A stretch of DNA of 64,000 nt from Kappaphycus alvarezii (taxonomy: Eukaryota; Rhodophyta; Florideophyceae; Gigartinales; Solieriaceae). Shown here piece by piece: positions 7,254 to 62,859 of the stretch. The stretch covers positions 1-64,000 of the forward strand of contig NADL03000492.1 in NCBI GenBank assembly GCA_002205965.3, read 5' to 3'. Below the pieces are notes generated by a model. The model worked only from the letters and a program-made list of their open reading frames with translations. It made no database searches and was not told the DNA's origin. The position numbers and the translations under genes were made by a program. Every line of letters starts with the position of its first letter. The first letter of the stretch is position 1.

Positions 7254-7525
7254 AAATGAAGAAGTCGAAAGACGATGACAAGATCGCCGTTGTTCAGGAA
7301 TCTTGCAAAAAGGACGTGGTGGCCGCCGCGACGAGAAGTGCGGACGGGCAGGCACTCCCGAAACAGCGGAGGGAAAACTTGATGGATCTTGAAGCCATCT
7401 TGAACAAAGCCCCTGCTAATCGTCCGCCGATGATGGCTCCCGTCCCAAGGAAGAAGACTTAGAGAGAAAACCGCAAATAGAGGAAGAAATCCGGTAGGCT
7501 TCAGGATCATTTAGGGAAGTATAAC

Positions 7526-7888: not shown

Positions 7889-8398
7889 ATGGTTGAGCAT
7901 CTTGAGTTCCTGGTAGTCAACAATGCCCGGTTTGACGTTATTGTTAGAAGCCCGACTCTGGAAGCTCTCCAGACGCGCATTGATTACGCACTCCAACACG
8001 TTACTTTGGTTATTGTAGAATAAGATGTTGTGTTCCCATTCGTAAACGAGCGTTCAGAATCAATGGGACTCAGACGGACGGTGAGAAATTCACGTCCCCC
8101 AAAGTTTCGGACGATGAGGAATCTCTCCACCCGTTCTCGTCGTCTAGCGAAAGCGATAGTGGATCTGATACCAAGCAAGACCTGGTCTTAGCCATCATTA
8201 ACAAGGAGTCGTACGAGCCTGATCTATCTCCCTCGACGAAGACTGAAGTTAAAGAGGTAAAAAAAGGTGGTGGCCCGCTCGGCTCTATTGGCCTCGAAAC
8301 TGAACCATCTCGAAGAGAAGAATCAGAAGGAGCTGGCGAAAGCTCTCAAGGAAACTGATGGCATAGCTTAGGAAATTCACGATCTGAAGCCTGCTCAT

Positions 8399-9776: not shown

Positions 9777-10117
9777 ATTCTTTGGAAGCACATGCAAATA
9801 CTAATCGCAAAATAGGAAATTACCTCGGCTTCTCGGGGGTCCTCCGTTATTTCGCGAAGCCAACGTCTAGTCGGTAGCCTTCCAATAATTATGGAGGCAT
9901 AGCTTACACTTGGGAGACTAGGCTGTGTTTGAGGTGATCTCCTTGCTGATCTTCCTCGTTGCTCTCGACACCTTGTCCTTTTCGATGATCCGCCCCGATC
10001 ACTGGATGGTCCTGCTCGTATCATCATGACGGTCTCGGGAGGATCTTGGTCTTCAGCTGAGCTCGTGTTCCTTGGCGGAGACACGCAAGGTTTCCATATT
10101 GGATATGGGACCCGTCG
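9777..10117. other. Junction region between plus-strand pol and minus-strand integrase remnants
   Basis: A minus-strand frame (9671-10084) rich in S, P, R and acidic residues runs through here and could be the decayed 3' part of the minus-strand element. No domain is visible. The strand switch relative to the adjoining pol marks an inversion or two elements placed tail to tail. Confidence 0.35.
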
Positions 10118-33103: not shown

Positions 33104-35255
33104 ACACATACCGCGACGTGAACGTCAGCGGATTTCAAGGGAGCTAGCTCTTGTCCTTGGGGAATGCGCGGACGCACCACATGGTTCTCCTCAAGCTGTG
33201 GAGGCATTCACCAAGTTGTTCCTATTCCCGTCCGCGATCCTTGCTAATCCCAAGCCCTCCACCCTCTCAATCCTCGTTCCGGGCACAGCATCAAATTCCC
33301 GTATTTTTGCTGAACGTATTCAACTATGGCGTGATGGACAGTACGAAACTTTGATGCGAAGGGCAAACGCCTTGGCAACATCGCGCCCGTTGCATAAGGC
33401 AACGGAAGAGGAACAAGCGGGGATCAACAAACGGCGCGCCCTGAGGCTTGCAAAGGAGGGCGCTTACGGCAAGGCAGCGCGGGCGCTGGGATCTTCGGGG
33501 ATCGCATGCCCCTCTGCAGAGGTGGTTTCCATTCTTCGGGAGAAACACCCACAGCGCTCTCCGACCACGGAATCGTACCAACTCGCTTCCCCTGACTCGT
33601 TGCCGGCTTGCCCCCACTTCACTCCAGAACTCGTTCTCCGTTGCGTTCGGAGCTTTCCAAGGGGTAGCGCCGCAGGGGGATCCGGACTCCGCCCAAACCA
33701 CCTCGTCGAGCTTTTGCAGGTCCCACCAGTTGTCAATGGTGGAAGGAGCTTGCTAGCTTCTCTAACTAGTGTGGTCAACTTGCTAGCCAACGGGAAGGCC
33801 CCTGCGGCTATATCGGCATGGATCGCAGGTGCGCCGCTCACAGCACTCCTAAAACCAGACGGGGGAATCAGACCGATCGCCGTGGGCGAGACCCTCCGTC
33901 GCTTGGTGGGAAGATGTTTGCTGACTTGCATTTCCGAGAAGGCTTCCGAATACTTCCAGCCACTACAGTTGGGAGTAGCAACGTCAGGAGGATCTGAGGC
34001 AGTTGTCCACGCTGTACGGCGACTTTATGAGGAGCATGGCGAATCGGCAGAGTATGCACTGTTAACCGTTGACCTTCAAAACGCATTCAACCTGGTCAGC
34101 CGAAGTGCGTTTTTGAAGGAGGTCGAGGAGAGGTTCGCGGAGCTCTTACCTTGGGTCAATTACACGTACGCGGTAAACCCGGGTCATCTGTGGTGTGGGG
34201 ATGATATGCTCCGGAGCGTGGTAGGCGTGCAGCAAGGGGATCCTCTGGGTCCACTTTTATTCTCCCTTGTGCTGCAAAAAGTAACGCGGGAACTGAAAAC
34301 CCGCCTGGAAAATGTGGCTGACACCACAGGCAGGCCTTCTCTACTCCTTCAGCTATGGTACTTGGACGATGGGTATATAGTGGGCACCCATGAAGCCATT
34401 CGGAGGGCACTACAATTCCTCTCTTCCGCGGAGGTGCGTGCTTTGGGTTTGCACCTCCGCATGGATAAGTGTGCCGTCTGGTGGCCAACCGCTCCCCCCC
34501 CGTCTGTTCAGCAGTCCTTCCCAGCCGACCTTCGCCAGGACTATAGTGAAGGGACAAAAGTGCTTCGCGCCCCAATCGGATCGGACCTATTCGTGGAGCG
34601 CGAGTTCTCAAAGCATGTCGCTTCACTGAAGCCTCTCCTCAGCGCTTTGTTAACCCTGGAGGACACTCAAGTAGCTCTCCATCTACTACGGACCTGCTTC
34701 GGCGTATGTCGCATTAACTACCTCCTACGTGTAGTTCCCCCTCATTCCACTGCTAAGGGGGCCGCGGAATTCGATTCCGCTGTTGAAGCTACACTGCGGG
34801 GGTTGATGGGCGGGGTTCTGGACAGCAACACTTTTCGGGAATTACAACTCCCTGTGGCGCCCTTCGGCCCCCTCAAGCCAACTTTTGGCATTGGGCTTCG
34901 CTCTGCGAAGCTCACTGCGGCGGCTGCGTTCCTTTCCTCCGTGTCCCTCACGCGTGCCCTTTGCTCTACCCTTCTGCCTGTGCTACCGAACACTGCTCTT
35001 CATTCATACAAATCCGCAGTTCGGGCGCACGACGACTGGAAGACACAAGTGGCACCCGAGAAGGTGGTCCATTTCACGGCTATCGACTCAGTGCAGAGGT
35101 TTGGGCAGGGCCAAGTCGTCCGCCCAGTTGAGGAAAAGGCCTTTGATGCCATGCCGAAGGGGGATGAGAGGACTGTTGCATTCCGAGCCTCGTTGTCAGT
35201 GGAGGGTTGCAAGGACTGGCTGTCATGCCAACCGGCTCCGGGGTTGGGTACCTAA
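33069..35255 (+). CDS. LINE family B reverse transcriptase (5'-truncated)
   Basis: The frame is open from about 33,069 with coding character from about 33,084 and no upstream ATG at its start, so the N-terminus is missing. Motifs in order: SGLRPNHLVELL; GGIRPIAVGETLRRLVGRCL (RT motifs 1-2); LLTVDLQNAFNLVSR (motif A aspartate); GVQQGDPLGPLLFSLVL (motif B); QLWYLDDGYIVGT (catalytic DD, motif C); GLHLRMDKC. After the RT come the thumb and linker with FGIGLRSAKLTAAAAFLSS. A stop TAA at 35,253-35,255 divides it from the endonuclease in the same frame. It is a non-LTR retrotransposon polymerase that primes on nicked target DNA. It is the most complete LINE in the window. Confidence 0.88.
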   Translation, partial: NRSTSYFVPLAQHIPRRERQRISRELALVLGECADAPHGSPQAVEAFTKLFLFPSAILANPKPSTLSILVPGTASNSRIFAERIQLWRDGQYETLMRRANALATSRPLHKATEEEQAGINKRRALRLAKEGAYGKAARALGSSGIACPSAEVVSILREKHPQRSPTTESYQLASPDSLPACPHFTPELVLRCVRSFPRGSAAGGSGLRPNHLVELLQVPPVVNGGRSLLASLTSVVNLLANGKAPAAISAWIAGAPLTALLKPDGGIRPIAVGETLRRLVGRCLLTCISEKASEYFQPLQLGVATSGGSEAVVHAVRRLYEEHGESAEYALLTVDLQNAFNLVSRSAFLKEVEERFAELLPWVNYTYAVNPGHLWCGDDMLRSVVGVQQGDPLGPLLFSLVLQKVTRELKTRLENVADTTGRPSLLLQLWYLDDGYIVGTHEAIRRALQFLSSAEVRALGLHLRMDKCAVWWPTAPPPSVQQSFPADLRQDYSEGTKVLRAPIGSDLFVEREFSKHVASLKPLLSALLTLEDTQVALHLLRTCFGVCRINYLLRVVPPHSTAKGAAEFDSAVEATLRGLMGGVLDSNTFRELQLPVAPFGPLKPTFGIGLRSAKLTAAAAFLSSVSLTRALCSTLLPVLPNTALHSYKSAVRAHDDWKTQVAPEKVVHFTAIDSVQRFGQGQVVRPVEEKAFDAMPKGDERTVAFRASLSVEGCKDWLSCQPAPGLGT

Positions 35256-49741: not shown

Positions 49742-49857
49742 TGATGGGAATGGGAGAGGGATTCTTGGAAGAAGACAGATAAAGGAGTAGGTTTAGGGTA
49801 GGGAGGGGTCGCTAGGTGACGCTGCCTCCTGCACGCTGCCCAGCCAACTCGGGTGCT

Positions 49858-49868
49858 ACCTATATAAC
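49858..49868 (-). promoter_or_regulatory. LTR TATA box
   Basis: On the minus strand CGGTTATATAGGTAGC; conserved in the 5' LTR at about 56,907-56,917. It marks the U3/R boundary for minus-strand transcription of gag-pol. Confidence 0.6.
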
Positions 49869-49902
49869 CGACACCAGAGCGGTCTGTGGCTGAGAGTCGT
49901 CG

Positions 49903-49935
49903 GTACAGTAGTGTACTTACTGTACACTACTGTAC
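49903..49935. repeat. 14-bp perfect inverted repeat inside the LTR
   Basis: GTACAGTAGTGTAC, spacer TTACT, GTACACTACTGTAC. It could extrude as a cruciform or bind a dimeric protein. In the 5' LTR (about 56,952-56,984) one arm has a single mismatch. Confidence 0.8.
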
Positions 49936-50060
49936 TTGACCATAAAAAATAATTAAAAACTACGAGGTAAAAGATAGAAAGTATAGTACGTTACCCTAAA
50001 ATATCGTCATAGATAGTACTAGAAACGCATAAAATCACCTTCCAGCCACTGTCATCAACA

Positions 50061-50076
50061 CCACTCCGTCCTCAAA
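50061..50076 (-). other. Polypurine tract candidate
   Basis: On the minus strand GAGGACGGAGTGG abuts the start of the 3' LTR (TGTTGATGA). It is a purine-rich run with two interruptions, where plus-strand DNA priming of LTR elements occurs. Confidence 0.5.
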
Positions 50077-50378
50077 CTGCAACCCGGGTGCAGTAAAGTG
50101 AGCTCGGCTAGCTCAAGGTAAGGATCGGCCGACCCTTGCACACCCCCCCACACACCTGCACACACTCGTTCCCATTCTTGCCCGCAACCCCAAGCTACCA
50201 ACTCTTGAGGTCTTGTACCCTCATAAGCTTCCATATCCTCCCGTGCACCGCCTTCGCCTCGAAGCTCAGTGTCGATTCAGATCAGACAAAGTCTCCGCGA
50301 CAGGCCTATCCACTGAGCGTGTAGAGGCGAAGGAATCCGGTGGTATCGTCGTCCCAAAATCCCCTGTGGATTAGTAAG
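50077..50378 (+). promoter_or_regulatory. Leader/promoter region of the antisense histone-mimic gene
   Basis: A 300-bp C-rich stretch with runs CACACCCCCCCACACACC and CTCGTTCCCATTCTTGCCC and no TATA box. It lies between the 3' LTR and the ATG at 50,379. Transcription of the plus-strand gene must start here or within the LTR in antisense direction. This is inference from position. Confidence 0.35.
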
Positions 50379-51374
50379 ATGGCGCATACGAAACAGACCG
50401 CCCGACGGTCAACAGGCGGGAGGGCTCCACGGCTAGAACTAGCTTGTAAGGCGGCAAGAAAGAGACCGTCCGAATTTCCTGTTACTACCCCACAGCCCCG
50501 AAGCTACCTCAAGACCATGGAATACTTCTCGCTAGACCAAGTCCGACGCGGGACAAACAAGAGTAGGCTCGTACGTCTCGCCGGCCGTCCGGATGTAATC
50601 AAGATTACAAGATCTCGCAAAGTAGGCGACAATCTAGATGATCTCTTCTTCCTGGTTTCATTTGGGGGCTATGAGAAGGAGAAGCCGGCTTCGGTGGAAC
50701 TGTCTTATTATGAAGCTACCCTTTTGTTCGGAAAGAATACGGTTAACATTGCCGCCTTCAGAGAGCTGACGAATGGTATTGACAGGGAGCTAGCATTCCG
50801 ACTGAGCTTAACAGAGTCTCTTCTCGATTCTGAGGACCATGCAGAGTACCCGGAATTTCCTGATTGGACAATCTACTCTGTGGTTTGGAAGATACCGGAA
50901 GGCGTACACGATTGTTTCATGGGGCAGTATCTTGCCGTCGACGTGGATACAGAGGAAGAGCACCCCATAGACTTGTACACTTTCTCATTCCATGAGGCGC
51001 TCCCAGGGGCCGGTCTTCATAATCCTCCTCAGAGGAACGTGAAACAGGAGCATAAAGACAGAGTAGTCGTCAATGCGTTGTTCGGGAGGAAGTTAGCTTC
51101 CCGTGTTGGAGCCATTATGATGATTGACTCCTGGTGCCAGAGGCACCCGAACAGTTATTACAAAGTACTCTTCCCGATGTCGAGGGCGGCTTCACCCTTG
51201 GCGCTCCCATTCCTAGACAAGGGCTTTCCAGTTCCTTTTCGAGACTTCGAAGGTCGCTGCATGCAGGCGTCCGCAGCGACGGCGCTCTACCTCGTCTTTG
51301 GAAAGGACACGGCAGAGGATTATTGGTCTCGTGATTACAAGAATGATCGTGAGACCTTAGATCAGTTGGGTTAA
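50379..51374 (+). CDS. Histone H3 tail mimic fused to chromo-shadow-like and peptidase-like segments (N-terminal part)
   Basis: ATG 50,379 (A at -3, G at +4) is the first ATG of the frame. Residues 1-18, MAHTKQTARRSTGGRAPR, and the following LELACKAARK copy the histone H3 tail: 21 of H3 residues 1-27 are identical, with R2H, K9R, K14R, K18L, Q19E, T22C; K4, R8, S10, K23, A24-K27 are kept. No histone fold follows. Residues 70-133 (VIKITRSRKV, LFFLVSFGGY, VNIAAFRELTNG) resemble a chromo-shadow domain by spacing. Near residue 294, GRCMQASAATALYL looks like a nucleophile-cysteine helix of a papain-fold peptidase. The gene lies opposite to gag-pol inside a Ty3 element. A TAA at 51,372-51,374 ends this part at 331 residues; the same frame continues. 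Mimicry is seen directly; domain calls are by eye. Confidence 0.85.
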   Translation: MAHTKQTARRSTGGRAPRLELACKAARKRPSEFPVTTPQPRSYLKTMEYFSLDQVRRGTNKSRLVRLAGRPDVIKITRSRKVGDNLDDLFFLVSFGGYEKEKPASVELSYYEATLLFGKNTVNIAAFRELTNGIDRELAFRLSLTESLLDSEDHAEYPEFPDWTIYSVVWKIPEGVHDCFMGQYLAVDVDTEEEHPIDLYTFSFHEALPGAGLHNPPQRNVKQEHKDRVVVNALFGRKLASRVGAIMMIDSWCQRHPNSYYKVLFPMSRAASPLALPFLDKGFPVPFRDFEGRCMQASAATALYLVFGKDTAEDYWSRDYKNDRETLDQLG

Positions 51375-51920
51375 CGTCCTCGTTGCACTTCCTTCGCCGA
51401 TGTTCTGAAGGGTTTGAACCGCGTTCGTCCTAGTCCCATCGTTTTGAGTCATATTCTCGTTGACGAAACTCCGCGCGGCCGCTTCAAGAGTAGTCTTCGA
51501 CAGCGGGATAGAAGGGATCTTGACATCAACTGGATCCGTGGTTTGCCGAATTCTTCCTCAAGTGGAATTTACGTGGCGCCGGTCATAGGACGCCGCGGGG
51601 CCCAGCATGCCGTATGCCTAGACGCAAGGGAAGGACGTATACTCATATATGATTGTGCGGAAGAGTATGCGATGCGGTTCTGTGAGGCCTCTCTGAGGAT
51701 TTGCTGCGGGGAGGAAGACCTGGAAGACTTTCTGAAGATCTCCGATGTACGGAGGGTGACGTTGGCAAGTAGGCAAGATATTCCTTCCCGAGGACATAGT
51801 ATCCCGACCGCTTCGTCAGGTTCGGAGAAAAAGAAGCGGAGGCGCCGTCGTCCAAAGCCGATAGTAGGTTCTTCTTCATCGGACAAGAGGTACAGGGGAG
51901 ACCAAGGAAGTCGTCAGTGA
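51375..51920 (+). CDS. C-terminal part of the histone-mimic protein: peptidase-like half and nuclear-localisation tail
   Basis: This is the in-frame continuation after the TAA: 181 further codons to 51,920. It contains RRGAQHAVCLDAREGRILIY followed by DCAEEY, a G-x-x-H-A-V-x-x-D/hydrophobic pattern like the histidine-and-strand part of papain-like peptidases, so the predicted cysteine and histidine lie on opposite sides of the stop. Later come a CCGEED acidic helix and the tail KKKRRRRRPKP, a strong monopartite nuclear localisation signal, then a serine-rich end. The uninterrupted coding character across the stop indicates a recent nonsense mutation (a one-base change such as CAA to TAA) or programmed readthrough. 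ATTAAA at 51,978-51,983 could direct polyadenylation. Confidence 0.7.
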   Translation, partial: RPRCTSFADVLKGLNRVRPSPIVLSHILVDETPRGRFKSSLRQRDRRDLDINWIRGLPNSSSSGIYVAPVIGRRGAQHAVCLDAREGRILIYDCAEEYAMRFCEASLRICCGEEDLEDFLKISDVRRVTLASRQDIPSRGHSIPTASSGSEKKKRRRRRPKPIVGSSSSDKRYRGDQGSRQ

Positions 51921-52394
51921 TTCCCATGTACGTCATTATATTCAAGAAGTATTGATTTTTGTGCGTGACTTAGTACTATTAAAGCTCCATCATTGGGTGA
52001 CAGAGGGTGTAAAATGCAGTTTTTCTTAGTTCGAAATGCAAAATGATTCAGCTTATTACTCAACAGCAAAGAAAAAGACATAAAAAGAATTAAAGGAAAT
52101 GAACGAGACGATAGCTATCATGGCTCAATCAAGTGCTCCTAGGCCTTCAAGTGGCTCGAGCGAAAGGCAAAAGGAACTAGTCTCCTCGCGTGGATGGCGC
52201 GGCGGGAATGGCGACCCCCGTATGAGATGAGCCAGTACCGAGGATGAGCAACTTTCCAAACGCGACAAGGCCCTTAATAGCGAGAACGGAGGGCAGGCCA
52301 CTTAGCAGCCGAAGTTAATGCCTGACCATGTGCCACTAGAACCCAATGCCCCAAGTTGAACATGCAAGGCTCTGTAGAGGTTGAATCACCCATT
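51921..52394. other. Spacer between the histone-mimic gene and integrase
   Basis: Holds ATTAAA motifs at 51,978 and about 52,090 and a plus-strand frame from about 52,099 (MNETIAIMAQSSAPRPSSGS, serine/arginine-rich, broken by stops) that may be the remains of a second antisense ORF. On the minus strand it is the decayed integrase C-terminus. Confidence 0.35.
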
Positions 52395-53004
52395 CTATAC
52401 ATCTGTTCTTCTCGACACTGAGCCCCGAAGGGCAGAGGAGGCCAGAAGTTCTAACTTGCGATGTGTATCTGAGGCGCGGTCCATCAACGCGACGAAGTCA
52501 GATGGACTCATGCGCGGAACTACTCCGAACATAAGTTCGAACGGCGAAGCTCCCGCGGAAAGGCGACGGCGGCGGTATCCGTACAAGACACGGGGCAAAA
52601 AACTCTTCCCAATCCATACCTTGGCCGACAACCATCTTCTTCACGGCTGTCTTGATGGTTCGTACAATCCTTTCAGCTCTACCATTAGACATGGGAGCAT
52701 ACGCGAGAACAGTGGTCCAGGTAATTCCATGTTTCTTCATAAAATCAGCGACGGAGGCAGCAGTGAAGCACCCAGCGTTATCGCTGATAATGTTCTTCGG
52801 GGGAACAAAAGGGTGCATAACTTCACTCTCGATGAACTTGGACACAGTTGCAGCCGACGAGTCTGTGGTGGCAACTACGATTGGCCAACCTGTCAAATGC
52901 TCGACGGCGATGAGCAGATACTTATTTCCGGCGTTTGATATCGGCAGAGGTCCCGCGAAATCGATCGAATAAGTTTCGAAGATATTCGTCAGTGGGACCT
53001 TCAA
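52395..53004 (-). pseudogene. Ty3/gypsy integrase core of the histone-mimic element
   Basis: The frame 52498-53004 has YSIDFAGPLPISNAGNKYLL (first catalytic D), IISDNAGCFTAASVADFMKK (second D) and APMSNGRAERIVRTIKTAV (catalytic E): a complete D,D-35-E triad. A frameshift near 52,600 moves to the frame ending at 52,395 (LYGYRRRRLSAGASPFELMF). No chromodomain is fused to this integrase. Integrase inserts the cDNA and made the TGATG duplication seen here. Confidence 0.85.
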
Positions 53005-53049: not shown

Positions 53050-53631
53050 TCAACTTTTCACATAGTTGTGAATGTCTTGGTGCATCTGCGGCCACCAATA
53101 GCGGTCTACGACAAATTTCCTCGTCGTCTCCTTATCCCAATGTCCGATATCGTCGTGAAAGGTCTTCAATATCGCGACCCTTTCCTTCATAAACGGTACA
53201 GATTTTAGCCCGTTTCTGGTTCGTCTGAGCAGCTTTCCTTCCCACATCATGAAGTTTTTAGCCATACGCTTGACGGAATGACGCTTCTCTCCATCATCAA
53301 CTCGGACCTTTAAACCTTGCGAATGACGCGCGACGTTGAGGAGGAAAGGCTCGATTATGGGATTCTCTTCCGTAGCGGCAGAATCCAGCGAAGCAACTAA
53401 GTCTCCTTCATCAAGTCCAGAAGCAGGAGATGGACCGGCAGGTACCACACGCGAGAGGAAATCAGCTGCTCCGTTTCCCGTACCTGGCCTGTACTCTACC
53501 TCGAATTCATACTCCGCAAGGAAGTCCATCCATCCCGCCAGCCTTCCGTGAATGTCGTTTTTCGTGAAGGCATAAAGAAGGGCTTGATGGTCGGTAATGA
53601 GCTTGAAGGGCTCCGTCGATAACAGATACAC
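53050..53631 (-). CDS. Ty3/gypsy RNase H end and integrase zinc domain
   Basis: PFKLITDHQALLYAFTKNDI and GRLAGWMDFLAEYEFEVEYR (RNase H end), GNGAADFLSR, a linker, then FHDDIGHWDKETTRKFVVDR with WWPQMHQDIHNYV, the histidines of the HHCC module. A stop at about 53,047 separates it from the core. Overlaps the RT frame in another phase, showing a frameshift at about 53,600. Confidence 0.8.
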   Translation of the reverse strand: MYLLSTEPFKLITDHQALLYAFTKNDIHGRLAGWMDFLAEYEFEVEYRPGTGNGAADFLSRVVPAGPSPASGLDEGDLVASLDSAATEENPIIEPFLLNVARHSQGLKVRVDDGEKRHSVKRMAKNFMMWEGKLLRRTRNGLKSVPFMKERVAILKTFHDDIGHWDKETTRKFVVDRYWWPQMHQDIHNYVKS

Positions 53632-54667
53632 TCTGAATTTCCTTAAAGCGCGTAACGGAGAGGGCCTCCCTCTCGCAGGCTGAATAGTTACGCTCTGCTG
53701 AGTTCATCGTCCGGCTTGCGTACTGCACGGGATGAATCTTGCCATCTTCCTGTTTCTGGGCCAGGACTGCCCCAACGGCGACATGAGAAGCGTCGGTTTC
53801 CACGATGAAGGGGGACTCGAAGTCTGGGACGTCTAGCACCGGCGGACAAGTAAGCTTCTCTTTCAGGGTTTCGAAGGCGGCAGTCATCTCCTCAGTCCAT
53901 TCGAACTTCCTATTGCCCGAAGTTGCTGCGTGAAGGGCAGAGGATATTACGGCAAAGTCCTTGATGAAGCGACGGTAATACCCGGCAAGGCCAAGAAAGC
54001 TACGCAACTCCGTTGAGTTGGTAGGAACGGTGGCCCTTTTGATGGCATCAATCTTCTCATCATCGACACGGACTCCACGCTTGTCTAGGAAGTGACCAAG
54101 CAGCTTTACGCTTGTCATAGCAAACGCGCATTTTGTAATCTTAAACTTAAGTCCTGCGTCCCCGACTGCCTTGAAAACGACAGCCAAATGATCAATATGC
54201 TCCTCCATATAGTTGGAGAAGATAACGACATCATCAAGATAGACACGGGCGAAGGGAATGTCCTTCAGTACGTAATCCATCATGCGCTGGAATGTGGAAG
54301 GCGCGTTCATTAGACCAAATGGCATCACCTCGAACTTGAAGGTACCAAAACGGCTGACGAACGTAGTCATCTCCGTACACTCTTCGGCCATGCGGATTTG
54401 CCAGTATCCCGCCAACAAATCAAGGGTGGTGAATATAGAGCTACCCTTTAGGTCGTCGAAGATCTCTTCTGTCTTAGGTAGTGGCCAACGATCCGCCTTC
54501 ATCTTGCGGTTCAAAGTGCGATAATCCACGCAGAAACGAGGCCTACCGTCCTTTTCCGTTACGATAACCACTGGGAACGACCAAGCCGACGACGCTGGGG
54601 TGATGATCCCAGCATCTAGCATGTTGTCTATTTCTTGACGGGCGATTTCGTTGTGTCGAGGCGACAT
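53507..54667 (-). CDS. Ty3/gypsy reverse transcriptase and RNase H of the histone-mimic element
   Basis: A clean frame of about 340 relevant residues: EIDNMLDAGIITPASSAWSF, PRFCVDYRTLNRKMKADRWP, TLDLLAGYWQI, PFGLMNAPSTF, ARVYLDDVVIFS (catalytic YLDD), LGHFLDKRGV, LRSFLGLAGYYRRFI, then RNase H with FIVETDASHVAVGAVLAQKQ and YSACEREAL. All catalytic residues are present. The frame changes at the 3' end (about 53,650). Confidence 0.9.
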   Translation of the reverse strand: MSPRHNEIARQEIDNMLDAGIITPASSAWSFPVVIVTEKDGRPRFCVDYRTLNRKMKADRWPLPKTEEIFDDLKGSSIFTTLDLLAGYWQIRMAEECTEMTTFVSRFGTFKFEVMPFGLMNAPSTFQRMMDYVLKDIPFARVYLDDVVIFSNYMEEHIDHLAVVFKAVGDAGLKFKITKCAFAMTSVKLLGHFLDKRGVRVDDEKIDAIKRATVPTNSTELRSFLGLAGYYRRFIKDFAVISSALHAATSGNRKFEWTEEMTAAFETLKEKLTCPPVLDVPDFESPFIVETDASHVAVGAVLAQKQEDGKIHPVQYASRTMNSAERNYSACEREALSVTRFKEIQSVSVIDGALQAHYRPSSPSLCLHEKRHSRKAGGMDGLPCGV

Positions 54668-55220
54668 TCGGCGAGCCCTGTGATAGATCGGGATAAAGGT
54701 CCTTCATTTCGAAGGAATGCTTCGTCGGCACGGCTGCAGGACGTAGCTCGTCTATAGTCCAGGCGACGATTCCCGTGTCGCGAAGCAACCCATTTATTTC
54801 ACCTTGCGTTTCTTCTTTTAAATGAGCAAGTCGAGTTCTCAGAGCATCCCGCATTTTCTCCTTCTCTTCTTTTTCGTCGGTAGTGCTTTCCTCACTGCTG
54901 GGACCTTCGCTCCATCCGGTAAAATTGTCCTCGCGGATGGCTAGGACCAGCTCTTCTTCCGAAGAGTCCGAGGGCTCCATACCGGCGTTCGAATCAGAAG
55001 TAAAATCTTCACTGTGAGTCCCTATCTCCTCGCCCTCGGCCTGTTTCTTCTCGGTAGACTTAGTATCAGGCTCGAGCGGGAGCACAACTTCTTCGGAACC
55101 AATGGTTAAACGGACGCTCTGTGCCCCGAAATCCATATTCGCACGCATAGCTGTGAGCGTAGGGAGACCTATTATTAGGTCAAAAGGAGACTTCTCGATG
55201 ACAAGGAAGTCTAGTTTCAC
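54543..55220 (-). CDS. Protease C-terminal half and acidic linker
   Basis: LDFLVIEKSPFDLIIGLPTL is the conserved end of a Ty3-type protease (D-x-I-L/I-G-x-x-x-L). A long acidic serine-rich linker with SDSSEEELVLAIRED follows, then an approach to RT (IVAWTIDELRP, HSFEM). The protease active site is in the preceding frame, so one frameshift lies at about 55,200. Confidence 0.7.
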   Translation of the reverse strand: MKLDFLVIEKSPFDLIIGLPTLTAMRANMDFGAQSVRLTIGSEEVVLPLEPDTKSTEKKQAEGEEIGTHSEDFTSDSNAGMEPSDSSEEELVLAIREDNFTGWSEGPSSEESTTDEKEEKEKMRDALRTRLAHLKEETQGEINGLLRDTGIVAWTIDELRPAAVPTKHSFEMKDLYPDLSQGSPNVASTQRNRPSRNRQHARCWDHHPSVVGLVVPSGYRNGKGR

Positions 55221-56034
55221 GGCTTGGTCCCCAAAGGTCGTCGGGGGCCTTAACCAGCGAACCTACACAGGAAGAACTGTCACCATTCGCAACAGTTATC
55301 CTTTTAGACGTGTAGTTCGGTGAAAGGTAAAGAAGTCTAGACAAATCAGCTGAAATTACGTCCGGTACGGCTCCGGAGTCTAGTAGAGCCCAGACCTCGG
55401 TTCCGTAAACTTTGAGTTGGACCAACCGTAATAAACGAGGACCCGAATTCGAAACGACTGCAACACGTGAAATAGGCTGTTTTCCCAACAAACGGCGCAT
55501 GACTTTGGTAGCTCCTTCAGCATCTCCAGGGAGAAGCTGACCGAATGTCAAACCACGATTTGCATTTGCAAGCTCGGAAAAAACGTCATATTTCCCTACG
55601 TATTCCTGCAGCTTATTCGAATTCTTCTTCCCGCGGTTCGATTTCTTCGCCTTCTTCTTACGGCTAATGATTCGAAATTCTTCCGGGGGTAGGGCTGGGC
55701 CCGGCTGCATACCGCGAGCGTGGGGACCAGTTACGAGGCGAGAGATCGGAATGCCTCCATGATTGTCCTGACGGGGCTGTTTGGGTAGTGCCTCTCCGTC
55801 GGCGTTTCTTTTCGCGACATTCACTCCTTCGTCTTGTGAGGAGTCGGTTTCGGAAGAGTCTTCTCGGAGGACATTTACTCGGTCACTTCCCTCCCCGTCT
55901 TCTTTTTTCTCGGCGGGGGCTTCTTCTCGAATCGCTGCCCTTCTTCCACCGGACCAGCACGTGGCATCTGAGTGACCCATCTTTCCACAAAGGGAACAGC
56001 GGGTGTTACGATGCGGGTTCTTCTCGCAATTCAT
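55180..56034 (-). CDS. Gag zinc knuckles and protease N-terminal half
   Basis: CNEFGHNAMNC (just upstream at about 56,045) and CSLCGKMGHSDATC are C-x2-C-x4-H-x4-C knuckles. The basic stretch RKKKAKKSNRGKKNSNK could be a nuclear or RNA-binding signal. LKVYGTEVWALLDSGAVPDV holds the aspartic protease DSG. The frame ends in the protease, where a frameshift carries on to 55,220. Confidence 0.8.
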   Translation of the reverse strand: MNCEKNPHRNTRCSLCGKMGHSDATCWSGGRRAAIREEAPAEKKEDGEGSDRVNVLREDSSETDSSQDEGVNVAKRNADGEALPKQPRQDNHGGIPISRLVTGPHARGMQPGPALPPEEFRIISRKKKAKKSNRGKKNSNKLQEYVGKYDVFSELANANRGLTFGQLLPGDAEGATKVMRRLLGKQPISRVAVVSNSGPRLLRLVQLKVYGTEVWALLDSGAVPDVISADLSRLLYLSPNYTSKRITVANGDSSSCVGSLVKAPDDLWGPSRETRLPCHREVSF

Positions 56035-56263: not shown

Positions 56264-56791
56264 CTAGAAAAACGCCACACGATTAGAGTGAAAGTCCTTC
56301 AGCGCCTTGACAATTCCCGGGTAATCCTTGGGTCCCCGAAATGCTAGAAACTGCTGCAGCTCCTTGTGTCGACAGGCGGCAGTGCGAAGGAGTCCGAACC
56401 TGGCGATGTTGTCGAACCCCGCCTTCTCGTAGAGGCGTTCAATTTCCCTCAACGAACCAAGAATGTCTTCTAGTTCAAGCCCAACTTCTAGAGCTTGGCG
56501 GATGACGTCCTCTGGGTCTTCGTCCTTCGCGAAATGCTCAAGAAACTTCTGTTTAACCTCGGCGTAGTTTTTCGCTTCGGGGACGAGCTCACCATTTGGC
56601 GCAAACGTATCGTAATAGAAGTCGAACGCTGCGCCGTCTAGGTGTGCGAGGAGAGAAAGAGCTTTCACCTCGTCAGGTTTGGATGCCATCGCGACATTCT
56701 CAAAGAAAAAGAAGAATTTTCGCACGTCGCTCGTGCCGTCGAACACGACCGCGCTGGCGCTGGGAGTATCGGCCCTGCGCAAGAGTACCAT
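56264..56791 (-). CDS. Ty3/gypsy Gag capsid of the histone-mimic element
   Basis: A 175-codon frame starting at ATG 56,791-56,789. The helical capsid pattern FDGTSDVRKFFFFFENVAMA, LLAHLDGAAFDFYYD, LEHFAKDEDPEDVIRQAL and DNIARFGLLRTAACRHKELQ matches the remnant at 6.36-7.25 kb. The start codon is formed by the last base of the LTR and the first two bases of the primer-binding site. A stop/frameshift at about 56,264 separates it from the knuckle region. Confidence 0.85.
   Translation of the reverse strand: MVLLRRADTPSASAVVFDGTSDVRKFFFFFENVAMASKPDEVKALSLLAHLDGAAFDFYYDTFAPNGELVPEAKNYAEVKQKFLEHFAKDEDPEDVIRQALEVGLELEDILGSLREIERLYEKAGFDNIARFGLLRTAACRHKELQQFLAFRGPKDYPGIVKALKDFHSNRVAFF
56773..56790 (-). 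other. Primer-binding site of the histone-mimic element
   Basis: On the minus strand TGGTACTCTTGCGCAGGG directly follows the 5' LTR end (CCCATCA). The TGG start complements a tRNA CCA end. The site is within the gag coding sequence. The tRNA was not identified. Confidence 0.6.
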
Positions 56792-57109
56792 GATGGGAGT
56801 CGAAGAGAGATTTTGGAAGAAGACAGATAAAGGCGTAGGTTTAGGGTAGGGAGGGGTCGCAAGGTGACGCTGCCTCCTGCAAGCTGCCCAGCCAACTCGG
56901 GTGCTACCTATATAACCGAAACCAGAGCGGTCTGTGGCTGAGAGTCGTCGGTACAGTAGTTTACTTACTGTACACTACTGTACTTGACCATAAAAAATAA
57001 TTAAAAACTACGAGGTAAAAGATAGAAAGTACAGTACGTTACCCTAAAATATCGTCATAGATAGTACTAGAAACGCATAAAAATCACCTTCCAGCCACTT
57101 TCATCAACA
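56791..57109 (-). repeat. 5' LTR of the histone-mimic element
   Basis: TGATGGGAGTCG to TCATCAACA on the plus strand, collinear with 49,742-50,060; about a dozen substitutions and two compensating 1-bp indels. Confidence 0.9.
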
Positions 57110-57169: not shown

Positions 57170-57520
57170 CCCGTATGTCTCCATTGCCCTAATAGCGACG
57201 TTCCGCGCCACGTCGGTCAGCACTGCGTAGGCGTGCCTTCATACAGTAAGGTTTACCAGAATTACCTAATCGATATACAGTCCTTGGCACTGTACGGTAA
57301 CGCACATATGCTGCACATTTTGACAGTGTCCAATTTTACAGCAGCCGTCATGTCAAATGCGGCCTGCTTGATAGCTGGCCTGAAGGTAGCCTTTTAGGAA
57401 GCGTAGTTCCTCCCCCATTACTGTGTCTGCATACCTTCTTGAGTCGATTGTGGTTGTCTGGAAAACTATGGGATAGATCAGATATATCTTCCAAGAGTAA
57501 AACACCCAAACCCTTCCCCA
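57170..57520 (+). repeat. LINE B 3' fragments and tail repeat
   Basis: 57,170-57,250 is an inverted LINE B segment (DVARNVAIRAMETYG on the minus strand). 57,335-57,397 is a plus-strand end (AAVMSNAACLIAGLKVAF, stop). GGAAGCGTAGTTCC and the tail repeat follow to about 57,520. The order indicates that the tail repeat is the 3' untranslated region of a LINE B-type element. Confidence 0.6.
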
Positions 57521-57655
57521 TTTACAGCTTTAGATCATTTACAGTAACTTCTGATTGGTTTAAGGTTCATTTATCGAAAATTTCGAAACATTTGGTCTGC
57601 TTTTTCTTTAGCGACATACTCCGAGACTTGCTGAGGCCAATACCCCGAATTTGCT

Positions 57656-58768
57656 CAGATTGGTTATCTGCAGTAACGCGAGTTACTAACAATTTGATAG
57701 TTAAACAGTCAACTTGCTCTCCGTGTGAATCACATCTCTGACAATACCAATCCTTCGTCACCAAACAAAAGTAGATCATGGAGGCTAAGCTTGATAATGT
57801 CAAAGGACAACTTTATTGTAGTACATGTGGGGGGAAGCCTTGGGTAGTTCATTATTTGGAGGTTAGGGTCATTTCCTCCCACCACTGCCACGGAAGTAGT
57901 CGCTTCACATCCCTAGTCAGTAAACTACCCAAATTCCCTCCGCCTTTTACGTTTTCCAGAGTGAAGCCATTTCTTCCCTGTGGGCATCTGTTGTTTCTTA
58001 CCTCCTTTGACTCAACAAGTGAGTTTTTAGTCAATTGTGGTTGTCTGGAAAACTTTAGGATAGGTCGAAAATATCTTTCAATAGTAAAAACATCCAATCC
58101 TTCCTCCCTCCTCAACACTATTGCCTGTCTTGAAAACCATAGGATAGACCGGATATATCTTCCAAGAGTAAAACACCCAAACCTTTCCCCCTATTGCTTG
58201 TATGTCTAAATTTCTACCCGACCCGCATCCAAATAATGCTGCGTCAGTAATACGTTTGCATTACTTAATGGAACTCATGGATTGAAACGAGCTTAATTCA
58301 TCACTGTTGGCGAAGTACTGTACATTATATGGTACATCCGAATTGTTCCAAACTTAGAGATCCAATTGTGGACCTTGTACTGTACACTGGTACTGTTGAG
58401 GTTCTTGACGATTCTCATGACAAATCTGATATTGCGTCCGTACGTTTAATCCGTTCACCTCCCTCTATGCGGCCGTCTCTGGAAGCATAGAAGATATGAA
58501 TCTTTTACTGCAACCTCCATGAGAAGTAAGCTTGTGCCTATCTCAATATCTACTCTCGGAGGTTGGCACCCGGACGCTTACAGGGTGCTCACCGATGTCG
58601 CGCGGAACGTGGCCGTTAGGGCGATGGCGGTATATGGTAAGGTACGAGCGGTACTTACTCAGAGGCACGCTGCCGCGGCCGTAATGTCCAACGCAGCTTG
58701 TCTGCTTGGCAGCCTTGAGCCGTTCTTTTAGGAAAATTTCAGAGGTATTACTGGTCACCCTGTAGGAT
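57656..58768. repeat. Duplicated block D1, copy 2
   Basis: Matches 30,405-31,445. It contains the CxxCGG ORF (57,778-58,209, paralogue of 30,525-30,959), an extra tail repeat at 58,127-58,197 and a LINE B 3' fragment at 58,522-58,731. Confidence 0.8.
58522..58731 (+). pseudogene. LINE family B 3'-terminal fragment in D1 copy 2
   Basis: PISISTLGGWHPDAYRVL, RNVAVRAMAVYGKVRAVLTQ, AAAVMSNAACL, stop. Nearly identical to 31,199-31,406. Confidence 0.75.
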
Positions 58769-58771
58769 ATA

Positions 58772-59826
58772 TTCCGAGAACTCCAACTACCGGTGAAACC
58801 CCAGGACCCTAAGAAACCCACCCTCGGTTTACGGTTCACATCGGCGAAAAGCATCGCTGGGGCCGCTTTCCTTGCCTCCAGCGCAGCTGCCAACAGGCTG
58901 GCCAACGGTATCTTGCCGGCACCCATCACGGATCTTTCGACGTACAATGATGCCGTCCGCGCCCACCGAATATAGTCGATATTCTGCCTGCCCTCACGAC
59001 TCCTACCCTTTAGTGTATTTTGCTCAAGCAAACCCCCTCCGCAAAGACACTAACAGAAGCAGTCCATGCGGCAGTTCAAAAAGAGATCCCTCTCGGCGAC
59101 CAACGAAGGCAAGCTTTCCGGGCTTCTATGGGCCTTCCCGGCGCAAAGGAATGGGTCTATTGTGCTCCGTGCCCCGGCCTCAAGACCAATATTGACGCCC
59201 GTGAGTTCTCAGTGTGGCTCCAGTACTACCTCCAAGTCCCGCTCTTCGCCCCAGACACGCCGTGCCCACGCCCAAACTGCCCTGAGGTCCTCGACTGCCA
59301 CGGGGATCACCTCATGTACTGCCTGCACGGTGGGCACCGCACCCGACGACACGACCGTCAAGTCGTCCTCCTCGCCCAAGACCTCCAGAAGGCAGCCCGT
59401 CATCCGGCTATCGAGCGGCGACAGGGGCTTCTCCGCACAAGGCCGGATATCGAGGCAATGGGTAGCAACGGAGGAACGGACTTTTTTGACGTCACGTTCG
59501 TCAATCCTCTTGCGCCCTCCAATAGGAGAGTGCGTACTTTCAACCCACTCACCTCCCTCAACGCAGCCATCTCCGCCAAACGTAGAAGGTATGAACCACT
59601 GCTCGCGACTGCTATTAGAGGGAGGCTTGCGCCTATCCCAATATCCACCCTTGGAGGCTGGCACCCAGACGCGTACGCGGTACAAACCGATGTCGCGCGG
59701 AACGTGGCCGTTCGAGCGATGGAGACGTATGGGATGGTTAGAGCGGTACTTACCCAAAGGCACGCTGCTGCGGCCGTCATGTCCAACGCAGCATGCCTGC
59801 TCGCCGGCATTGAGCCGGCCCTGTAA
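58772..59826 (+). pseudogene. LINE family B truncated copy with intact restriction-like endonuclease
   Basis: Begins RELQLPVKPQDPKKPTLGLR in the linker after RT and has a break near 58,976-59,020. It then runs open to 59,826 with CPGLKTNIDAREFSVWLQYY, zinc ligands CPRPNC, GDHLMYC and RTRRHDRQ, TRPDIEAMG (catalytic D), TDFFDVTFVNPL, STLGGWHPDA and MSNAACLLAG, stop. The endonuclease is uninterrupted here, unlike at 35.25 kb. No promoter or RT is present, so it is a 5'-truncated insertion. Confidence 0.85.
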
Positions 59827-60097
59827 GGAAGGTCATGTACTGTAGTGTTACCCATCAGCGACGACTTTTCCCGCATAACGCATTAGCCGCGTGGATATAA
59901 CCGACCAAATCTTCCATGCATTAAAATAACCCAAAAATTTCCCCCTGTAGGATCACTTTCAAATATCTACCAGCTACTTTCTAGATGGTACACACGCTCA
60001 AGCACTTGCAATATAGGTCCCGCCAATGGTTCGATTACAAATACAGAGGACTCCCAACCTTTCCATTACTCGCAGTAAACCAAACCATTTTTCCCCC
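59827..60097. other. 3' flank of LINE B copy, start of tandem repeat region
   Basis: Contains a first diverged unit of the 60-kb tandem repeat (AATACAGAGGACTCCCAACC, about 60,040-60,090) and no gene. Confidence 0.4.
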
Positions 60098-60246
60098 TTT
60101 ATTAGTTGCACACTGTGGTCTTCTGTTGCAATGGCGATTCTATCGCGAGCCCCACTGCACGTGCCTGACGTGGAACATCCGGTTAGTTCTTAGCCGTATA
60201 GTCAGTCCTGCAGTGTATACGATAGATACTCAATGAAGTAAAGTTT
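60098..60246 (+). pseudogene. LINE family A 3'-terminal fragment
   Basis: Matches 26,703-26,850 nearly base for base, from AGTTGCACACTGTGG through the stop (60,191-60,193) to GAAGTAAAGTTTC. It is a third LINE A end. Confidence 0.75.
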
Positions 60247-60690
60247 CGTCTTTATTCTGGAGAGCAAATACAGAGGACTCCCAACCGTTCCATTACTCGC
60301 AGTAAACCAGTTTTCACCCTTTATTCTGGAGAGCAAATACAGAGGACTCCAACCGTTCCATTACTCGCAGTAAACCAATTTTCACCCATTTCCCCCCTTT
60401 ATTGAGTCGATTGCGATTGTCTGGAAAACCATGGGATAGGTCGGAAATATCTTCCAACAGTAAAACACCCAAACGTTTCCCCCTTCTGGAGAGCAAATAC
60501 AGAGGACTCCCAACCGTTCCATTACTCGCAGTAAGCCAATTTTCACCCATTCAAGTAAAACCAATTTTCCCCCTTTATTCTGGAGAGCAAATACAGAGGA
60601 CTCCCAACCGTTCCATTACTCGCAGTAATCCATTCGACTGTAAGCCCCATTCACCCATTCAAGTAAAACCAATTTTCCCTTTTCAAATAT
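60247..60690. repeat. Imperfect tandem repeat, units about 75-110 bp
   Basis: At least four further copies of GGAGAGCAAATACAGAGGAC, CAACCGTTCCATTACTCGCA and GTAAACCAATTTTCACCC, each ending in CCCCTTTATT. One unit is split by a LINE-tail repeat (60,405-60,482). No coding meaning. Confidence 0.75.
60405..60482 (+). repeat. LINE-tail repeat inside the tandem array
   Basis: GAGTCGATTGCGATTGTCTGG and ATCTTCCAACAGTAAAACAC match the tail repeat, inserted within a tandem unit. Confidence 0.7.
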
Positions 60691-60724
60691 TAAATCACCC
60701 CACATTTCCCCCCTTTATTGCATA

Positions 60725-60880
60725 TTGGGGGGAAACGTTTGGGTGTTTTACTGTTGGAAGATATTTCCGACCTATCCCATGGTTTTCCAGACAACCGCAA
60801 TCGACTCAAAAAGGGTATACCTACAGCGTAATGGGGAAGGAACTACGCTTCCTAAAATGCTACCTTCAGGCCAGCCATAT
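60725..60880 (-). repeat. LINE-tail repeat, inverted, with LINE B terminal codons
   Basis: On the minus strand: CTGGCCTGAAGGTAGCATTTT (LINE end LAGLKVAF plus stop), GGAAGCGTAGTTCC, then the full tail to CCCCCC at 60,725. Same as 62,690-62,838 in the opposite orientation. Confidence 0.7.
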
Positions 60881-61084
60881 TGCATATTTGTGTTTAGTTC
60901 TCAGGGACTAGCTGGTACAGGAATACATTATCCTGTACCATTCCCGCTCAACACTGCCCAGAGAAGTAGCAACTCCACATCCTTTATCAATAAGATATCA
61001 GCAAAATACCCAGAATCTGCCCCCTTATACATGTACTGCGCAATAATTACTCGGAGCTCAAACTGCATTTGAGCACAGCAAATG

Positions 61085-62047
61085 TCACAGGTCGATCACG
61101 GTTAATGTAAACACCATGTCGTCAACGTTTGCAATATTACCATCCATCAAAAGTTCATTGAACCGCGGGTTCGGAACAGCAAGTCTACCCGCGCCTACGG
61201 CCACTGTGGTCGGGAAGCGGAATCCGTCCGACTCGATATTTCTCACAAAGCGCAACGATACTACCCTTCTTTCTATTGCCACGGCCCAGACGGACACCAA
61301 GTTGAACACGTTCTGGGCGACATATAAGAAATCCCCGGCTCTAGTCCTGACAAGTTCCAAACCATCAGCGCCTATCACACGTCCGTCAGCGAGTAGCCGC
61401 TGCAATCGATTGCCATTTTGCAAGTCAACAAAGAAGAGGGTACCGAGTTGCGAATTAGCGACGATGAGACCGCGACTGAAGACAACAATACCATTGGCAG
61501 AGGTCGTGACGTTGGAAAAAAATTGTTGGGACAAGATAACTGTGGAGATTTGACAGGCGGGCAGCGAGTCCAGAGCAAGGGTGTATATGGCCCCGCGGGC
61601 AGAGTCGGTAAAGTAGGCAAAGCCCTCTGACTCGGAGGCAATAACGTCGTTGACAAAGCTGGCACCAGATGGGAGACATGAGGCTATGATATCGCCAGTA
61701 ATGATGTCGTAGACGTTGAGTGACGGGACCGGTTCGGAGGGACCGGTGCCGACGATAAGTTGCGGGAAGGGTCCACCGCCGGCGGCGAAGAGCAGACTGG
61801 AGGTGGCGGATATGCCGATGGAAGTGCGGTTGGGGCCCGGACGGGCGACCGTGGTAGTGAGGTTTGTGTTGCCGTCAATGAGGTAGATGGGGCCGTTGTT
61901 CAGGTCTGCGGCAAAGAAGTTGGAGCCGCCAGCGTGAGCTACACCCTCTACTACAACGCCTTGAGGGAGATTGATGACAGTGGCTTGAGAAAGGGATGAG
62001 AGGAGGAGAGGGAGGAGACTTGGGAGAAGAAAACTGAGAGCACGCAT
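61085..62047 (-). CDS. Secreted six-bladed beta-propeller protein, SMP-30/gluconolactonase-like
   Basis: A 320-codon intact frame from ATG (62,045-62,047). It has a signal peptide with a leucine-rich core, MRALSFLLPSLLPLLLSSLS, probably cut after SQA. Repeated propeller strands follow: FFAADLNNGPIYLIDGNTN, SVNVYDIITGDIIA-type turn, GFAYFTDSARGAIYTLALDS, LGTLFFVDLQNGNRLQRLL, DFLYVAQNVFNLVSVWAV, FPTTVAVGAGRLAVPNPRF. The D-x-x-x-G-x-I/L-Y pattern and length (about 300 mature) fit the SMP-30/strictosidine-synthase-like superfamily, often metal-dependent lactonases. The catalytic residues cannot be assigned safely. It is a host-type gene, not a transposon, and its 5' half and upstream region are duplicated at 31.8-32.9 kb. 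Confidence 0.75.
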   Translation of the reverse strand: MRALSFLLPSLLPLLLSSLSQATVINLPQGVVVEGVAHAGGSNFFAADLNNGPIYLIDGNTNLTTTVARPGPNRTSIGISATSSLLFAAGGGPFPQLIVGTGPSEPVPSLNVYDIITGDIIASCLPSGASFVNDVIASESEGFAYFTDSARGAIYTLALDSLPACQISTVILSQQFFSNVTTSANGIVVFSRGLIVANSQLGTLFFVDLQNGNRLQRLLADGRVIGADGLELVRTRAGDFLYVAQNVFNLVSVWAVAIERRVVSLRFVRNIESDGFRFPTTVAVGAGRLAVPNPRFNELLMDGNIANVDDMVFTLTVIDL

Positions 62048-62525
62048 GACTTGGGACGGATCTGGTGTGGAATGTGGAATTGATGCAGAGCGTGGATGAG
62101 ATAGGTCGGACTGATGGAGGGTGATCTTCCAGCACGGGGCTTTTTATGGTGGGGAGGACGTGGTGCTGGTGAGTTGGATTGGTCACTGTTTTTGGTAGTA
62201 CTAGTAGTACTCGAGATGTGGAGGCGATCTGCGATTCGTGATTGGGTGGTGTGGATGACAAGATTTGGGTATTGGGCGTTGTGGATGTTCTCTAAACGTC
62301 AAGGTTTGCATGAGAGTCAGACCTCCATGCTTGTGATATACGGATCCCCAAAGTCGGGACATCTAAGAGACGATGATTCGCTATTGGAATGATGTTGATG
62401 TCCCACTATCACCGATGAATTTAAGCCAAAGATGCATTCCCACACAGTTCAATGCTACAGCAGTAGGCGACTACGGATTGAGCCATTACGTTACATATTA
62501 CTGGGCAGCGCACTTCTACATTGGT

Positions 62526-62548
62526 GTACTGTACTGTACTGTACTGTA
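62526..62548. repeat. GTACT microsatellite, 4 units
   Basis: Four GTACT units and a partial one; the paralogous site at 32,746 has six. Confidence 0.85.
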
Positions 62549-62687
62549 TTGGATCGTGCTGCATAGCTGTACTGTGCAGTGCGGTACAGTACTGTACAAT
62601 GCAAAGAAAATTCATAATTCACGGTACCATGGCGGTACAGTAAATCTTCACGAGTTTTTAAGGCACGAAAGTATACAGAGTAAATGA

Positions 62688-62838
62688 TGGCTGGCCTGAA
62701 GGTAGCATTTTAGGGAGCGTAGATCCTTCCCCAGTACTGTGTCGGTATACCCTTTTTGAGTTGATTGCGGTTGTCTGGAAAACCATGGGATAGATCGGAT
62801 ATATCTTCCAAGAGTAAAACACCCAAACCTTTCCCCCT
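62688..62838 (+). repeat. LINE-tail repeat, best preserved plus-strand copy
   Basis: TGGCTGGCCTGAAGGTAGCA with the LINE B terminal stop, GGGAGCGTAG, CCCCAGTACTGTGTCGGTAT, GGTTGTCTGGAAAACCATGG and CAAGAGTAAAACACCCAAAC, ending CCCCC. No poly(A). Confidence 0.7.
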
Positions 62839-62859
62839 TACTCAGGCAGGCTGCTGGTG

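Follow-up and report, generated by a model that had tools for sequence, protein, structure and literature searches.

An antisense gene with a histone H3-like start in a Ty3/gypsy retrotransposon clade of the red alga Kappaphycus alvarezii

An H3-like reading frame opposite gag-pol

The stretch of DNA considered here (hereafter the window) comprises 64,000 nucleotides of the red alga Kappaphycus alvarezii (assembly GCA_002205965.3, contig NADL03000492.1, positions 1 to 64,000, forward strand), and it contains a Ty3/gypsy long terminal repeat (LTR) retrotransposon that bears an additional gene opposite to gag-pol. This gene starts with an ATG at 50379 on the plus strand, between the integrase (domain at 52498–53004, minus strand) and the LTR at the 3' end of the element (49767–50060, minus strand), an antisense position that was proposed in an initial annotation of this DNA and that is borne out by the location of the domains and of the LTR pair. 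The open reading frame (ORF) opens with MAHTKQTARRSTGGRAPRLELACKAARK, the initiator Met being followed directly by Ala, and a longer stretch of its opening from 50379 on the plus strand is MAHTKQTARRSTGGRAPRLELACKAARKRPSEFP. A recount of residues 2–28 agrees with the earlier figure of 21 identities to the histone H3 tail in 27 positions.

A phmmer search of the ORF against PDB chains returned 131 matches at E values up to 1 (best E = 1.7e-7), and the 60 of these 131 that were listed are all H3, H3 variants or Cse4/CENP-A-type chains. With H3 as the tblastn query, the window yields 50379–50462 at E = 1.8e-9 and a runner-up place at E = 0.60. Taken together with the shared-variant tests described below, these E values rule out a chance match to H3. 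A Pfam search of the 331-residue ORF found neither a histone domain nor any other, and codons 346–513 give just PF00808 at E 0.15, below its cut-off, so that the earlier description of an H3 tail with no histone fold behind it stands.

The same description took the 331 residues for the whole protein, which the reading frame does not support. The first part of the gene (codons 1–331, 50379–51371, plus strand) is followed by an in-frame TAA at 51372–51374, after which the frame goes on through codons 333–513 (51375–51917, plus strand) to a stop at 51918–51920. Because this stop, at codon 514, is shared by 27 of the 32 readable copies found elsewhere in the genome and in the window, we regard the locus as a gene of 513 codons that has acquired a premature TAA in the window copy; among the other 29 copies of a 30-copy set the same codon is a stop only in L017, and in a wider alignment also in L038. 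Among 38 copies, 34 begin with Met at codon 1. Active elements would probably encode a product of about 513 residues. The gene starts 318 bp inward of the 3' LTR, and the leader between them (50061–50378, plus strand), which is matched between LTR and ORF in all 30 fetched copies, may hold its promoter and 5' untranslated region.

Two patterns of frame damage were seen among the copies. Within the antisense gene of L002, L003, L005, L008 and L030 there are roughly one to two dozen small, mostly one-base deletions per copy that have the look of homopolymer assembly error. In L006, L018, L021, L026, L028 and L038–L040, some of which are mutual haplotype duplicates, codon 429 is a stop, possibly a recurrent mutation or else an inherited short form.

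Close copies and selection on the tail

A DNA search of the same assembly (336 Mb, 884 contigs) returned at least 45 matches at 73–100% identity (40 of 180 candidates scored). Every one of the 42 rows in the alignment of close copies has a recognizable H3-like tail, which in some of them (e.g. L024, L033, L034 and L035) contains small gaps or breaks of the frame. In these copies, which were collected by similarity to the antisense gene itself, LTR sequence lies upstream of the gene in 30 of 30, several having only part of it, and the integrase downstream in 25 of 30. Several copies occur in near-identical form on two contigs (L033/L034 on C841 and C44; L026/L028 and L039/L040 on C477 and C688), which probably represent two haplotypes of the same genome; in both L033 and L034 the antisense gene is present twice, in inverted order with the 3' ends together.

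To separate inherited from recent changes, variants found in a single copy were treated as mostly post-insertion mutations and variants found in at least four copies as mostly inherited from active elements. Four of the 42 rows (L028, L034p, L034m and L040p) were dropped as haplotype duplicates, judged by eye, which left 38 copies, and codons broken by indels were excluded copy by copy. Over the whole gene the shared variants comprise 150 nonsynonymous (N) and 266 synonymous (S) sites vs 911 N and 199 S among singletons (p = 1.9e-64), and in tail residues 2–28 they comprise 1 N and 26 S vs 53 N and 17 S (p = 3.1e-11), p-values that are indicative because the counts are of sites and not of independent events. 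The sole shared replacement in the tail is a stop at codon 20, present in five copies. Constraint is stronger on the tail than on the remainder of the gene (p = 9.9e-5), and shared-variant thresholds of 3, 5 and 6 copies agree in direction (5 N and 28 S in the tail at a threshold of 3), the difference between tail and rest falling to p = 0.013 at a threshold of 6. Of 487 windows of 27 codons scanned along the gene, no more than one shared replacement is present in just three, which start at codons 1, 2 and 3, and K4 is a lysine in 38 of 38 copies.

A first set of 30 copies, in which haplotype duplicates were kept, points the same way. Here shared variants fall at the three codon positions in the numbers 47, 31 and 192, and singletons in the numbers 342, 307 and 296, while pairwise dN/dS declines with the age of the pair, being 0.58 in the youngest bin and 0.19 in the oldest. 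In the 38-copy set the frame of the gene contains 120 stops among 18837 readable codons, and at no position are most copies stopped, vs 508–935 stops and 12–23 such positions in the other five frames. One reverse frame (offset 2) has, in the 30-copy set, a shared N/S of 90/181 vs 80/190 in the frame of the gene, which it mirrors because their codons are complementary; coding on that strand is rejected by its 688 stops in 18825 codons and its 16 majority-stop positions vs none. A DNA or RNA signal as the cause of the conservation is ruled out by the 26 shared silent variants in the tail. Random divergence of the tail among copies, the outcome that the initial annotation had set against its own proposal, is therefore not what is found. 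Judged from the sequences of the copies, the H3-like start belongs to the element and is kept by selection at the protein level.

Age of the tail and relation to host H3

A genome search with H3 itself recovered five host H3 loci, 82–90% identical, together with many matches to the tail only (at least 67 matches in all; 150 of 396 candidates scored). One host locus, L075, covering the N-terminal part of H3, has the canonical tail. Relative to host H3 the window's tail keeps 21 residues, and at just 3 of these 21 is the codon identical. Since residues have been kept while codons differ from those of host H3, the tail is old and held at the protein level. A nested pseudogene of host H3 was considered and set aside on the same ground, and because some 480 further codons without H3 similarity follow the tail.

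Diverged relatives and tail variants

A protein search extended the family to at least 137 matches at 35–100% identity (121 of 846 candidates scored). Twenty diverged loci were read, and 15 of them begin in frame with an H3-like tail, in some cases degraded (L053, L062, L067); the tail is in a shifted frame in L052, L054, L055 and L063 and was not seen in L066. A convergent integrase lies downstream in 13 of the 20, and in L051 the integrase is on the other side. The gene, its tail and its location thus recur in many copies and across several subfamilies, maintained at the protein level, and the H3-like start in other copies, on which the initial annotation had staked its case, is found among close and diverged copies alike.

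The tails differ between subfamilies. Subfamily B (L049; L070) opens with MAKTNQTARKSTGGKPPRKQLWQKAARKTAG or MARTNQTARKSSGG, and subfamily C (L059, L061, L068 and others) with sequences close to MAKTNQTAKKSTGGRAPRRELMAKAARKTAG that carry single changes; position 4 is R in L050, a B-like copy, and L058 has a more distant tail, MTKTNQTEKKKSTCSGTPRKEI. In the window's subfamily K4 is retained and position 9 is R; in subfamilies B and C it is K9 that is retained, and position 4 is N. Constant across the tails of A, B, C and E, as read by eye and with differences in individual copies, are A1, T3, Q5, T6, A7, S10, T11, G12, G13, P16, R17, L20, K23, A24, A25 and R26. The main marked lysines K4, K9, K14 and K18, and sometimes K27, are among the positions that differ between subfamilies.

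The tail is also joined to a second type of body. With the window excluded, 40 of 56 tail matches lie farther than 2 kb from any A- or C-type body among the matches compared, and a 213-base piece, L076, begins with MARTRQTAAKSTGGAAPRGQLVAKAARISPL and continues into a different body; the tail of this second type is MARTRQTAAKSTGGAAPRGQLVAKAARIS. A search with the L076 piece gave at least 86 matches (150 of 300 candidates scored), of which 68 bear the tail, three host H3 matches having been removed before counting and two of the 68 (C204 and C545) being subfamily C loci matched by the tail alone. Of these, 57 run for at least 55 residues, past the tail, and 15 of the 40 tail matches lacking a nearby A- or C-type body recur among the matches of this search. 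Three second-type matches face an integrase at 1.93–1.96 kb among the integrases compared, so at least some second-type genes are antisense in such elements. Open frames of up to 415 residues were seen among those listed for G000:C458:808245-808448, L076 and other second-type matches.

In a survey of the best 150 of 9046 candidate integrase matches, 29 have the gene or tail within 4.5 kb on the expected side. This survey spans several families and was done before the second gene type was recognized, so that the second type is uncounted; it left out 10 of the 67 H3-search matches (H3 genes and H3-core matches) as well as second pieces of one locus.

The host element

The order of parts is that of a Ty3/gypsy element, with two LTRs around gag, protease, reverse transcriptase (RT), RNase H and integrase; RT, RNase H and integrase were assigned by Pfam, the protease weakly and gag by position. 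The LTR at 49767–50060 and the 5' LTR at 56815–57109 (minus strand) are direct repeats, 97.3% identical, with 7 mismatches and 1 gap. Inward of the 5' LTR an ORF at 56264–56791 (minus strand), which resembles a stretch at 6389–6875 and found no match in Pfam, is presumably gag, a name given by its position. A protease region with a zinc knuckle read by eye follows at 54543–56034 (minus strand; PF13650 at E 0.0012, under its cut-off), then a region of RT/RNase H and integrase zinc-binding domain at 53050–54667 (minus strand; PF00078, PF17919, PF17917, PF17921), with broken frames in both regions, and then the integrase at 52139–53004 (minus strand; PF00665 at E 7.1e-12 over 52498–53004), its C-terminal end read by eye in pieces of frame. 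The integrase and the antisense gene are convergent, with about 220 bp between them, and the latter has the placement of an antisense additional ORF (aORF-3R), on the opposite strand between pol and the 3' LTR. The element had been called complete, which holds in outline from gag to integrase and for its two LTRs; its gag-pol frame, however, is split into several ORFs, and no target-site duplication is visible at the flanks of the window copy, the one copy inspected, with LTR ends set by eye.

The integrase frame ends within about 15 residues of a RRAIHARRLVP module, which we take to be GPY/F-like, in most of the 43 lines read (38 distinct loci). A chromodomain at the integrase C terminus, the trait of chromoviruses, was not seen by eye in these lines, including the longer exceptions L022, L036 and L062. 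Decayed Ty3/gypsy pieces akin to the main element lie at 6389–11220 of the window (gag 35–54%, RT mostly 52–62% and, on the opposite strand, integrase 44% identical), and no match to the antisense gene was found within them.

The body of the protein

Behind the tail (residues 1–28, 50379–50462, plus strand), which is marked out by its identity to H3, the PDB E values and the shared variants, three regions may be distinguished. Residues 64–137 (50568–50789, plus strand) may adopt a chromo- or chromo-shadow-like fold, by weak structural resemblance: the A2 structure model, with a pLDDT of 45.7, gave a best Foldseek E of 1.4 and a weak resemblance in VIA, and the A1 model (pLDDT 39.4) was not used. 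An hhalign comparison with chromo and chromo-shadow sequences gave no match, and in profile searches of the PDB with sub-alignments no persuasive relative emerged, one search giving a single match at E 0.39 and another none.

Residues 290–430 (51246–51668, plus strand) possibly form the core of a papain-like cysteine peptidase, as suggested by the order of motifs. Cys294 (FEGRC) is present in 32 of 37 copies, His410 (QHAVCLD) in 32 of 37 and Asp425 (ILIYD) in 30 of 37; in the rows of diverged subfamilies that cover each site, Cys is present in 6 of 8, His in 9 of 9 and Asp in 8 of 9. Pfam returned no peptidase match for this region, and the A1 and A2 models give its fold at low confidence. A ULP/C48 protease is disfavoured by the order seen here, Cys then His then Asp, when it is set beside the motif order of that family. 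Both the chromo-like fold and the Cys-His-Asp core are weaker leads than the tail. Near the C terminus a basic stretch, KKKRRRRRPK (51828–51857, plus strand), with comparable basic runs in most aligned rows, is a possible nuclear localization signal.

A proposed mimic of the H3 tail and its likely use

There is reason to think that the ORF in the window forms the opening part of an accessory gene conserved in a large Ty3/gypsy clade, and that its product uses a mimic of the H3 tail to dock on host proteins, likely against silencing; we put the probability of this reading at roughly 0.55. The predicted protein would begin with the mimic, its Ala expected to be freed by removal of Met, and continue through a body of about 480 residues to a basic end. 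It would enter the nucleus, where the tail would dock on host proteins that normally hold the N terminus of H3, whether readers, modifying enzymes or remodellers. Its most likely use would be against the chromatin silencing that the host directs at the element, by competition or diversion, so that among roles we would favour a decoy or competitor, then a tether to chromatin, then an import signal. Because the residues of grip are kept while several of the marked lysines are changed, the protein may be one that is held by H3 N-terminus factors and yet escapes or alters their usual marking.

Several observations weigh against this reading. None of the 30 copies is open across all 513 codons, the longest being 428 residues, and the broken frames may arise in part from single-base deletions that resemble homopolymer sequencing errors. 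The tails of A, B and C do not keep K4 and K9 together, which argues against a single modification-dependent reader. Most of the integrases closest to that of the window have no detected antisense gene alongside, and given the share of surveyed integrases that carry it the gene looks dispensable for the spread of the wider clade, as an accessory gene gained or lost along the clade would be. No homologue came to light beyond the host genome, the sole hit among 5.8 billion proteins, apparently including few eukaryotes and with in part the 8000 best-sharing candidates scored, being a fragment (P0001) that matches copy L038. A search of viral contigs for homologues found none.

A more ambitious version of the proposal, which we hold only tentatively, is that a clade-wide, H3-tailed nuclear protein, combining a chromo-like module with a cysteine-peptidase-like core, imitates the N terminus of H3 in order to bind, block or cut the host machinery of the H3 tail, the subfamilies tuning which lysine is kept (K4 and not K9, or K9 and not K4) in the manner of an arms race against different chromatin factors. 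The H3 tail is also a known nuclear import signal, and it might instead have been kept for the karyopherins that import H3, the protein, and perhaps the pre-integration complex with it, riding the histone import route. The retention of K23 and the KAAR block in the tails of A, B, C and E is what speaks for such a tag, which we nonetheless consider unlikely, given that most copies also have a classical basic stretch near the C terminus and that A1, T3, Q5, T6 and the STGG block, among the most constant positions, would not be expected to matter for import. We attach a similarly low likelihood to a tether, in which the tail would be the substrate of a host writer or the ligand of a reader and would carry the protein and the integrase to chosen chromatin, thereby directing integration. 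Residues 64–137 may be chromo-like, and since no chromodomain was seen where the integrase ends, some other source may provide chromatin targeting; the chromo resemblance is weak, however, and a connection between the antisense protein and the integrase is a supposition.

The presence of an H3 tail and of a possible chromo-like domain within one protein also suggests that the tail could be the ligand of the protein's own domain, serving autoinhibition or the formation of multimers without any host target, an explanation that we regard as distinctly improbable. The decay of individual copies would fit a functionless accident, whether a fragment of host H3 that was captured or a chance likeness, which is contradicted by the shared-variant test, by the divergence of codons from host H3 with residues kept, and by the presence of the tail in distant subfamilies, and to which we give almost no weight.

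If the preferred reading of a docking mimic is right, a near-complete H3 tail under selection points to host chromatin proteins, and a short peptide of it could be used to fish for them. These natural variants of the H3 tail, kept outside the building of nucleosomes, could also help to separate residues of grip from residues of modification. Were the gene to counter silencing, it would offer one route by which a retrotransposon clade could have spread in a 336 Mb genome.

Relation to known systems

No report of a retrotransposon gene with an H3 tail was recognized in the open-licence PubMed Central literature, and to our knowledge the gene would, if the more ambitious proposal is true, be the first full-length histone-tail mimic encoded by a retroelement and would represent a new class of anti-silencing factor. 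Viral mimicry of histones is familiar from the C terminus of influenza NS1, which bears a short H3-like motif. That motif comprises a few C-terminal residues, whereas the family described here has a true N-terminal tail of 27 residues across a clade of elements. VANC of the Arabidopsis VANDAL transposons is, like the function thought likely here, an anti-silencing protein encoded by a transposon; unlike it, VANC is described as sequence-specific, with no mention of H3 mimicry in the portions of the source available.

Boty-like elements and their gene brtn were reportedly the subject of an article by Zhao et al. in Virology in 2011. In these elements of Botrytis cinerea, brtn is an antisense gene (PMC8365987, PMC4227169, PMC7264820, PMC5987419), and, as far as the accessible portions of these sources go, it shares with the window gene an LTR element as its carrier, in the case of brtn a fungal one, an orientation opposite to gag-pol and a site between pol and the 3' LTR. 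The gag-pol of Boty is described there with a chromodomain, whereas the integrase of the window element has no visible one; the likeness of brtn to the window gene is one of position and of descriptions, and the word 'histone' occurs 0 times in the available text of PMC8365987 and PMC7264820.

The plant elements Retand, Grande and RIRE2 likewise carry antisense genes that lie between pol and the 3' LTR (PMC11963269, PMC7264820), in keeping with the initial annotation's mention of antisense ORFs in some plant LTR elements. In the available parts of these two sources their ORFs are described as having the same site and orientation, as conserved within lineages and as suspected of a nuclear regulatory role; the Retand ORFs, in contrast to the window gene, mostly have a TRP28 domain, and 'histone' occurs 0 times in the main texts as available (PMC11963269, PMC7264820). 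HBZ of HTLV-1, a retroviral regulator likened here by description, is a nuclear protein from a gene antisense to gag-pol, and the passages available on it do not mention an H3 tail (PMC11963269). The same excerpts describe the function of such LTR-element genes as unknown (PMC11963269, PMC7264820). Antisense genes at this site, between pol and the 3' LTR, have thus been described before, and what is new to us is the H3 tail as its content, with BRTN compared by description only.

Other features of the window

Away from the element, an ORF for a reverse transcriptase with a non-LTR look (PF00078) lies at 33198–35255, and a piece of ORF at 59020–59826 has a GDH motif resembling that of the ORF downstream of it. 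Dispersed and inverted repeats of 66–151 nt, built on one common unit, occupy 57369–62839, and amid them an intact ORF of 320 amino acids at 61085–62047 found no Pfam match at E values up to 0.01. The first 1109 positions of the window form a degenerate tandem array of 125 copies with the consensus TCCCCTAAA; because this array is telomere-like, the contig may start at a chromosome end.
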